From the NCBI GenBank assembly GCA_016218085.1, contig JACREY010000012.1, positions 62,001 through 126,000 on the forward strand: a stretch of 64,000 bases of DNA, written 5' to 3'. Shown here in pieces: positions 16,260 to 57,044 of the stretch. The notes beneath the pieces are model-generated. The model searched no databases and was not told the DNA's origin. It saw nothing but the letters and a program-made list of their open reading frames with translations. Made by a program: the position numbers and the translations under genes. This stretch comes from Ignavibacteriota bacterium (GTDB lineage Bacteria > Bacteroidota > Ignavibacteria > Tepidaquicellales > Tepidaquicellaceae). Numbering within the stretch: position 1 is the first letter of the stretch; the number at the start of each line of letters is the position of its first letter.

Positions 16260-16271
16260 TCTTTAATAATT

Positions 16272-16302
16272 GTCATCCCCGCATGTTTTAAGCGGGGATC
16301 TC
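16272..16302. repeat. Solo GTCATCCCCGC/GCGGGGATCTC palindromic repeat
   Basis: GTCATCCCCGC (16272-16282) and GCGGGGATCTC (16292-16302) enclose a 9-bp loop; the 8-bp inner stem is perfect. The element with its flanks matches 55089-55126 at all but about two positions. Here it stands alone between ppdK and its terminator; at 55 kb the same element borders a GIY-YIG nuclease gene. Confidence 0.8.
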
Positions 16303-16308
16303 GTTCTT

Positions 16309-16347
16309 AAATCGTTCCTGTGCGAATGTGCAGGAACGATTTTTTTT
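16309..16347 (+). terminator. Rho-independent terminator of ppdK
   Basis: AAATCGTTCCTG (16309-16320) pairs perfectly with 16331-16342 around a 10-base loop, followed by a run of T (16340-16347). It is a strong plus-strand terminator 50 bp after ppdK. Its CGTTCC...GGAACG ends echo the repeat hairpins at 8361 and 8404. Confidence 0.85.
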
Positions 16348-54936: not shown

Positions 54937-55090
54937 ATGTGATATTTAACCTTGTAATTAACGGTTAATATAAATTATATCTCAAACACAAAAAAGCCAA
55001 AATAAATTTGGCAGAAATACGATTACTGCATTTAAATTATGCAAAACCAATGCAAAATTGTCCTTGCTCTAAAGCTCTCCAAACAATATT

Positions 55091-55121
55091 GTCATCCCCG
55101 CATGTTCTTAGCGGGGATCTC
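55091..55121. repeat. Left palindrome of the GIY-YIG cassette
   Basis: GTCATCCCCGC (55091-55101) and GCGGGGATCTC (55111-55121) with a short loop. It contains the stop codon of the GIY-YIG gene. It is a near-copy of the solo element at 16272-16302 and is inverted relative to the element at 55480-55531. Confidence 0.85.
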
Positions 55122-55469
55122 GTTCTTGTACTTTTCTTTGAACAAGTCTTCCATTTCTTCTACTTCTTTTGGGGTAATGTAATCAAAAATCAAATCTCTT
55201 AATGTCGGATTTTCATTCTTTATAATTTCGAGTTTCCAATCCCTGTTCCATTTTTTTAATCTCTTCTCTCTTTTTATTGCAATAAAAACATCGGCAAAGC
55301 GTTCAAAATATACCGGTTTTATTACTTTGTATTTTTTGGTGAATCCGTCTGTAATCTTGTATTTGTGTTCGATAACCCTGCGAAGTAAATTGTTGGTAAA
55401 GCCCGTATAAAAAACTGTGTTGTTTTTGTTTGTCAGGATGTAAACATAATATGTGTATGTTTTTTCCAT
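55092..55469 (-). CDS. GIY-YIG nuclease domain protein (UPF0213-like)
   Basis: A 125-residue small GIY-YIG endonuclease-fold protein. The signature reads YYVYILTNKNNTVFYTGFTNN (about 7-27, given as YYVYIL and FYTGFTNN), then LLRRVIEHK with the conserved Arg and His, and REKRLKKWNRDWK with the catalytic-type Glu. Family members are stand-alone, of uncertain cellular role. The last residues (about EIPAKNMRG) are encoded by the palindromic repeat, and the whole gene is enclosed by inverted copies of that repeat, so it looks like the cargo of a small mobile unit. Confidence 0.9.
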   Translation of the reverse strand: MEKTYTYYVYILTNKNNTVFYTGFTNNLLRRVIEHKYKITDGFTKKYKVIKPVYFERFADVFIAIKREKRLKKWNRDWKLEIIKNENPTLRDLIFDYITPKEVEEMEDLFKEKYKNEIPAKNMRG

Positions 55470-55479
55470 TTAAGTCGTT

Positions 55480-55531
55480 GAGATCCCCGCTTTAAGCATG
55501 TCGAAGATGCGCCGTGGCGTACGGGGATGAC
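55480..55531. repeat. Right palindrome of the GIY-YIG cassette
   Basis: It begins GAGATCCCCGC (55480-55490) and ends CGGGGATGAC (55522-55531), the exact reverse complements of the inner and outer ends of the left element. Between them is a CGAAGATGCGCCGTGGCG stretch (about 55502-55519) akin to the in-frame GCCGTGGC palindromes of T9SS genes. Confidence 0.8.
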
Positions 55532-55547
55532 ATACGTGTTGGGTTTT

Positions 55548-57044
55548 TTATTTTAATAAAATCATCTTCCTCGCGTCCATTCTCACCCCGTCCGCATAGA
55601 GGACGTAATAATATACTCCGCTCGGCAGGCTCGAAGACCCGCCGTGGCGGGCGTCGAATTGCACTTCGTAGCTTCCGGGCTTTTGTTTTTCGTTGACGAG
55701 AGTTGCAATTTCTTTCCCGAGGATATCGTAAACTACCAATCGAATAATTGACGATTGATGATTCACGATTGACGGCACAAAATACCTTATATTTGTTGTT
55801 GGATTGAACGGGTTTGGGTAGTTCTGAAATAATTTAAAATTTTTCGAGATAAAATTGCTATTAGAATTAATACTTAAAGGGTCAATATACAGCATTGTAT
55901 CAGTTCTTGCTACAAATATACCTCTATCTGAACTATAACCGGAAAAATATGCGGTACCCACATACATTATATGTCCATCATTTAGCGGTAAAATACTGCG
56001 TGGGTCATAGCCACCATTATTGCTTTTTTTAATTATATTTTTATGTATAATCTTTCCTGTAGAATCAACAATTTTAAAAACCGTCAACGAAATTGAATCA
56101 GAGTAAAAATCATAATAATCATAAGATGTAAAAACAAATCTATTATCATCCAATACATCCAGTCCTCTCATAAAATGTTCTGTTCTGCCCGTACTGTCAA
56201 ATCCATGATGCTGGCTTATAACATTTCCTGATGTATCTATTTTCGCAAAATAATATTTGAAATTGGTGTTTGGGTAGGGGATGGAATCTGCAGCATACCC
56301 CATCAACAGATAACAATTACTTAGTTTTCTGATGATGTTACAGTTAGCATTTATGTTGTAATAAATTTTTTGCCATAAGATATTTCCGTCTATATCAACT
56401 TTTGTAATTACATTGTAATCATCGGGTAAATGACCAGAACATAAATATCCATTGTCAAAAGTTTCTATGATAGAATAAATTTCGCCTGAATTTCCAAGCT
56501 CGCTTGTGTTTTTACTCCAAACATATTGACCTAACGAATCAATTTTTAGAACATAAGAAAACCCGCTCATTAAATAGCCATTATCAGAACACCTTATTAT
56601 TTGGTTAGTGCTATAATAAATATTCTGATTCCCGTATGTCTTTTTCCAAATTAAATCCCCGTTTTGGTTAATTTTCATTGCGTACGGTTTGTAATCGCTT
56701 CTATATCCGGCTATGACGCAACAGCTGTCTGAAGATACTGCACAAGTCATAGCATATATGTCATAAGTTGAAGAGTCAGAGTAGACATTTGACCAAATTA
56801 CATTTCCTAATTTATTAATTTTTATTAAATTTATTTTCATCCTCGGTCCATTTTCGCACTGACCTGCAATTATAAAATCACCATTTTTTACCTGACAAAT
56901 ATCCCAGCCTCTCTGGTAATATTGTCCTGCCGTTCTAAATGCATGCCACCATGTTTGGGTATCTCCGTTTTTATAAGTAAGAATAATTATAATTAAGAGA
57001 AAAATTTGTTTTGCATAACTTGAAAAAAATTCACTTCTCTTCAT
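55548..57044 (-). CDS. T9SS-secreted repeat protein
   Basis: A 498-residue secreted protein with a hydrophobic signal segment (about 12-26). The body consists of repeats of the type KINKLGNVIWSNVYSD, KINQNGDLIWKKTYG and KVDIDGNILWQKIYY, separated by blocks such as DNGYLMSG, a pattern common in uncharacterised T9SS proteins and probably a propeller. The T9SS domain starts at NYPNPFNPTTNIRY (about 412). It contains DARHGGSS, encoded by a 28-bp palindrome (55631-55658) identical to the one in the gene at 11178. Ends RKMILLK. Function unknown. Confidence 0.85.
   Translation of the reverse strand: MKRSEFFSSYAKQIFLLIIIILTYKNGDTQTWWHAFRTAGQYYQRGWDICQVKNGDFIIAGQCENGPRMKINLIKINKLGNVIWSNVYSDSSTYDIYAMTCAVSSDSCCVIAGYRSDYKPYAMKINQNGDLIWKKTYGNQNIYYSTNQIIRCSDNGYLMSGFSYVLKIDSLGQYVWSKNTSELGNSGEIYSIIETFDNGYLCSGHLPDDYNVITKVDIDGNILWQKIYYNINANCNIIRKLSNCYLLMGYAADSIPYPNTNFKYYFAKIDTSGNVISQHHGFDSTGRTEHFMRGLDVLDDNRFVFTSYDYYDFYSDSISLTVFKIVDSTGKIIHKNIIKKSNNGGYDPRSILPLNDGHIMYVGTAYFSGYSSDRGIFVARTDTMLYIDPLSINSNSNFISKNFKLFQNYPNPFNPTTNIRYFVPSIVNHQSSIIRLVVYDILGKEIATLVNEKQKPGSYEVQFDARHGGSSSLPSGVYYYVLYADGVRMDARKMILLK
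55631..55658. repeat. 28-bp palindromic element in frame, second copy
   Basis: Identical at all 28 positions to 11279-11306, including the CCCGCC-GT-GGCGGG core. It encodes the same ARHGGSS residues in the same place of the sorting domain, between the VQFD strand and the SGVYYY strand. Confidence 0.85.

Follow-up and report, generated by a model that had tools for sequence, protein, structure and literature searches.

A GIY-YIG nuclease gene between inverted GTC-tagged REP hairpins in an Ignavibacteriota bacterium, a pairing that recurs across bacterial phyla

A small GIY-YIG nuclease gene of an Ignavibacteriota bacterium lies between two inverted, outward-tagged REP hairpins, and a further copy of the hairpin stands alone elsewhere in the analysed stretch of 64,000 nucleotides (the window). 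The pairing of nuclease and REP is specific, oriented and recurrent across phyla, and both elements and solo REPs are present or absent among relatives. We consider it likely that the unit represents a minimal REP element, in which a GIY-YIG gene is placed between inverted outward-tagged GTC (CGTC-type) REPs, the solo REPs are gene-less derivatives and the nuclease replaces the HUH transposase (RAYT). In the following, G000 denotes the source genome, G001 a congener, and C2, C3, C6 and C8 are contigs of G000. The window contains these features:

55064..55554, no strand: element, approximate extent; the block common to the second unit on contig C2, reaching slightly beyond the tags
55091..55121, + strand: left REP hairpin on the 3' side of the gene; tag GTC 55091-55093, stem arms 55094-55101 and 55111-55118, loop 55102-55110, tail CTC
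55092..55469, - strand: GIY-YIG nuclease gene, 125 aa (ORF, Pfam match, conserved residues, AF2 model)
55481..55531, - strand: right REP hairpin on the 5' side of the gene, inverted and broken by an insertion
55501..55521, no strand: 21-bp insertion within the right hairpin, absent from the second unit
16269..16311, + strand: solo REP unit, made up of the palindrome 16272-16302 and short conserved edges
16309..16342, + strand: separate intrinsic terminator-like hairpin adjoining the solo, kept in G001

The 441-bp unit (55091-55531) starts with GTCATCCCCG and finishes with CGGGGATGAC, and its inner ends, GCGGGGATCTC (55111-55121) and GAGATCCCCGC (55480-55490), are exactly inverse to each other. 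In the left hairpin the GTC tag (3 nt) is followed by an 8-bp stem (ATCCCCGC/GCGGGGAT) around a loop of 9 nt and by a tail of 3 nt; this hairpin also encodes the final codons and the stop of the nuclease (EIPAKNMRG-stop). The inverted ends, the inner inverses and the position of the stop codon had been claimed in a first-pass annotation and were all found as described; the solo palindrome it reported at 16272-16302 is present as well, with 2 of 31 positions differing. Folding of the hairpin gave z-scores of -5.7 and -5.6, whereas the interrupted right hairpin folds poorly (z -0.9) because of the 21-bp insertion. A chance origin of the palindrome was ruled out, as its pattern had two matches in the window but none in any of 100 shuffles; for the pairing of gene and hairpins, chance was ruled out by the shifted-window controls given below. 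The GC-rich repeat TCGAAGAYSCGCCGTGGCG, which is inserted in the right hairpin (55501-55521), occurs again at 55631-55649 inside the neighbouring coding region and near other loci of the source genome.

The protein matches the Pfam GIY-YIG domain (PF01541, E 1.1e-13) and carries the conserved Tyr, Gly, Arg, Glu and Asn that characterise the superfamily in sequence. Y10, Y21, G23, R31, H35, E68 and N87 are invariant in 56 family members, and by analogy with established GIY-YIG biochemistry these residues would have a catalytic role. Pairwise dN/dS values of 0.00-0.21 show purifying selection on the gene, whose protein is probably conserved as an enzyme. In a profile search no NCBIfam family named the window protein. 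An AF2 model (pLDDT 91) and profiles placed UPF0213/YhbQ and the structure-specific Slx1, which acts on branched DNA, closest to it; yet the window nuclease belongs to a sequence group of its own with about 20% sequence identity to these proteins, and unlike it they are not reported as REP-flanked. Free-standing homing endonucleases of the I-TevI type and group I intron endonucleases share the GIY-YIG fold and residues, but the window nuclease has neither an intron nor a single target gene, consists of the core domain only and is bounded by REPs.

A second complete unit was detected at C2:82126-82545; blastn aligned it to the window unit with 82% identity over 440 bp and matched a further piece of 33 bp. 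Its right end is intact (C2:82517-82545), and its flanks show little homology to those of the window unit outside the shared block (blastn). A third GIY-YIG gene (C8:117908) is enclosed by a different palindrome, GTCATCCCGGCGGATTTTAGGCCGGGATCC, present on both sides in inverted orientation. Of the remaining GIY-YIG genes in the genome, three are small and located at tRNA genes, and two are larger and look like housekeeping genes. Genes of the former kind (about 80-90 aa; L014/L018 at G000:C3:586524-587100, L017 at G000:C6:193643, and L090) adjoin complete and partial copies of tRNA-Asp or tRNA-Cys, a pattern as if they were homing to tRNA genes.

The source genome (3.3 Mb) holds 13 exact palindromes and 25 matches to a broader pattern; a 43-bp solo unit, similar to the gene-3' end of the element, is present in about 21 copies. 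The solo in the window is located between a stop codon and the T-tailed terminator. In the congener, where the preceding coding end is 85% identical, the gene end and the downstream terminator are kept and the palindrome is absent. Three solo copies (L003, L302, L306) occupy similar positions inside coding regions, in the C-terminal domain of secreted-type proteins, and in the one intragenic solo whose frame was checked the REP-encoded peptide is added in frame.

The arrangement is not peculiar to this genome. Among 59 close homologs (60 relatives), outward-tagged hairpins were found on both sides of the gene in 21 and inward-tagged ones in a single case, whereas both-side outward hairpins occurred at 0/10 tRNA-type and other distant GIY-YIG genes and at 0/49 other ORFs. 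A GTDB scan yielded 78 usable homolog loci, with outward hairpins on both sides in 40 and on at least one side in 67; the corresponding numbers for shifted control windows, which are more coding than true intergenic controls, were 0/296 and 31/296. Hairpins on both sides were recorded in Pseudomonadota, Bacteroidota, Patescibacteria groups, Omnitrophota, Chloroflexota, Calditrichota, Nitrospirota, a deltaproteobacterium, LCP-89 and UBP14, among others; the same arrangement of nuclease and REPs recurs in about ten phyla. A test independent of the hairpin detector (local score between the flanks, threshold 16) revealed flank-to-flank inverted repeats at 88/130 loci versus 6/504 controls, in locus sets that are not phylogenetically independent and in which several genera repeat. 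The median distance from the gene to the nearest hairpin is 53 bases on the upstream side and 21 bases on the downstream side, and hairpins often overlap the stop codon. Orthologs without flanking palindromes had been named beforehand as an observation that would speak against an element; such homologs, without a strong flank-to-flank inverted repeat, do exist, but they are a minority (42/130), and several of them show variant tags or short stems.

The idea that any small nuclease gene attracts GTC REPs was rejected: DUF559 genes, with few usable loci, gave none with GTC REPs on both sides, and tRNA-type GIY-YIG genes gave 0/10. Another palindrome family, with members such as TCCCTCTCCTTGAGGAGAGGG, flanks small DUF559 genes in inverted copies at four loci (L263, L270, L281, L283), possibly a parallel case of nuclease-repeat pairing. 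In Neisseria gonorrhoeae (L284) a member of the GIY-YIG family lies inside an array of GTCATTCCCGCGNANGCGGGAAT repeats, which are probably the known dRS3-type repeats.

Co-occurrence and lineage tie the two partners together. In a set of 297 genomes, 147 encode the nuclease family and 60 contain a REP with the GCGNANGC loop. This REP is present in 55/147 genomes with the nuclease versus 5/150 without; expressed the other way, 55 of its 60 host genomes encode the nuclease (Fisher p 1.8e-14, genomes treated as independent of kinship), as do all 29 genomes with at least 8 copies. When six REP classes, set by simple rules and with near-copies adding to the clustering, were mapped onto a maximum-likelihood tree of 105 nucleases, 21 changes were required compared with 46.3 after shuffling, and none of 200 shuffles was as low. 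One class joins Geobacteraceae with relatives on the Bacteroidota side, and another, with a changed tag, forms a single clade. The hairpin class thus tracks the nuclease lineage.

Comparison of relatives revealed sites with and without the element. In the Sphingobium megaplasmids TYG46, MM15, MM7A and TYG73 the interval from fnrL to a response regulator is occupied by REP-gene-REP, the nuclease gene of TYG73 being frameshifted; at the same site TYG64 and TYG74 have a single double-tagged palindrome, and TYG72 has neither palindrome nor element. The TYG64 palindrome equals the left half of the left REP joined to the right half of the right REP. Azospirillum lipoferum 4B shows REP dimer-gene-REP dimer between sufB and sufC and five relatives lack the element, although the intergenic sequence is too diverged for precise junctions. 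The sufB-sufC gap of Shinella PSBB067 holds another family member. Across species the gap has different occupants (L212, L226, L283): A. lipoferum and Shinella have a GIY-YIG element there, Sphingomonas a DUF559 gene. Between IMG/VR loci L187/L202 and L190/L196, the orientation of a conserved block whose ends lie near the tags is reversed with respect to the flanking genes, which are conserved as well. At 26 ends on the left and as many on the right, homology between elements stops at most 5 bp from the tags; in distant pairs the likeness of the REPs themselves may contribute in part to this. No target-site duplication was seen at the inspected junctions, and sites without the element could equally be ancestral or deletion scars, as either direction fits. 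The Arenibacter loci L156/L163 were rejected as one element at two sites and not counted as transposition, their further matches representing the same neighbourhood in shuffled order. The initial proposal of an autonomous element and its gene-less derivative gained support from the second unit with its unrelated flanks, the many solos, the spread over about ten phyla, and relatives that lack either the gene or a solo.

The hairpins resemble a known class of repeats. Di Nocera et al. 2013 (PMC3733652) defined the CGTC REPs, stated the apparent absence of a dedicated transposase and suggested that these repeats may be heading for extinction. The window hairpin shares with this superfamily the (C/T)GTC tag, an AT-first stem of 8-9 bp and a short tail, which is CTC in the window and CCA-like in many relatives; head-to-head dimers, another feature of the superfamily, are also met among nuclease-linked REPs. 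The loop differs, with 9 nt in the window hairpin against 4-5 nt in CGTC REPs, although loops of 4-5 nt prevail at the other loci of this nuclease family. We therefore call the window hairpin CGTC-type and do not assign it to one of the four published families. The superfamily includes Rickettsia RPE-type and probably Neisseria dRS3-type repeats, and A. lipoferum and N. aromaticivorans are among the species named for CGTC repeats (PMC3733652); in both of these species we found the nuclease gene between CGTC-type hairpins. No associated enzyme had been found for CGTC REPs in that study, whereas one is found here. The closest parallel in arrangement is the REPtron (RAYT with GTAG REPs/REPINs), in which, likewise, inverted tagged hairpins enclose one small enzyme gene, further REPs occur alone or as dimers elsewhere in the genome, and the repeat type is specific to the enzyme lineage. 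Membership was rejected despite this likeness: the REPtron enzyme is an IS200/IS605-like HUH tyrosine transposase with the tag GTAG, whereas the window enzyme is an unrelated GIY-YIG protein, for which covalent tyrosine chemistry is impossible, with the tag GTC. A classical DNA transposon or MITE was rejected too, since the unit has no transposase and inspected junctions show no target duplication. An earlier link of GIY-YIG proteins to REP, REPIN, RAYT or palindromes was not found in open-access full texts, with preprints and most subscription journals outside this search, and the novelty of the nuclease-REP link is provisional.

Since GIY-YIG enzymes cleave DNA by hydrolysis and form no covalent protein-DNA intermediate, the joining step must be left to host repair. 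In the mechanism that we envisage, the nuclease would recognise the tag and the hairpin, extruded or single-stranded, and cut at or near the tag; host break repair would then copy or reseal the REP alone, or the complete REP-gene-REP unit, at another site, and REPs could thereby spread in trans. It is plausible that GIY-YIG chemistry would take the place of a transposase. We lean, with less assurance than for the window unit itself, towards the wider claim that a large GIY-YIG family is a dedicated mobiliser of GTC/CGTC-tagged REPs in many phyla, acting through hairpin cleavage and repair by the host, without any transposase.

The main rival is a homing variant, in which the gene encodes a free-standing homing endonuclease that recognises the REP or its dimer: once an unoccupied REP has been cut, the gene would be copied in by break repair and end up between duplicated cores of the REP, so that REPs are target and not cargo. 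The half-and-half palindrome of TYG64, where sister plasmids have REP-gene-REP, would suit this course of events but could equally be a deletion scar. REP dimers are frequently repeated beside the gene, and the many genes between directly repeated dimers also fit homing; the number of these tandem dimers varies between strains (L219 and L218 versus L285 and L235). Homing by itself leaves the arrival of solo REPs at new intergenic and intragenic sites unexplained. We regard this variant as possible though not favoured; it overlaps with the mobile REP element, so the confidences in the two are not exclusive.

Some nuclease copies may be resident rather than mobile. In Bradyrhizobium species the gene stays at one locus while the REPs change, and two Sinorhizobium keep the gene and differ in REP-dimer copy number; for the latter reason hflX-mazG of Sinorhizobium was rejected as a gene-less site. 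Together with the strong purifying selection, these cases agree with a domesticated host enzyme, retained for trimming or resolving the hairpins or cruciforms formed by REPs or for self-regulation through them, and with little mobility itself. Its patchy presence, several copies per genome, the frameshifted TYG73 copy and presence or absence among close relatives speak against this, and we think it unlikely as a general account. Still less probable is a gene enclosed by accident among REPs moved by another enzyme: REP-rich regions are indeed repeat mosaics, but one gene family in one orientation, a matched REP class and co-occurrence across phyla do not suit a passenger, and no other transposase partner is known for CGTC REPs (PMC3733652). 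A reading of the palindromes as immobile hairpins, serving as transcription terminators or placed in 3'-UTRs, is very improbable and was rejected, for although many solos lie downstream of genes, and the first-pass annotation had seen a palindrome always at transcription ends as a possible refutation, the window solo has its own terminator alongside (16309-16342), retained in G001 without the palindrome, other copies lie inside coding regions, and outward pairs surround one gene family.

CGTC-type hairpins are widespread and rank among the commonest short repeats of bacteria, and the nuclease is likely the missing partner that spreads them. Position, orientation, co-occurrence and lineage tie the enzyme to CGTC REPs, and the open question of their partner can now be tested at the bench. 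If the mobile-element reading is true, REP biology would gain a second enzyme chemistry in addition to that of the RAYTs, naturally matched pairs of enzyme and hairpin would become available, and many proteins annotated merely as 'GIY-YIG nuclease family protein' would receive a likely role.
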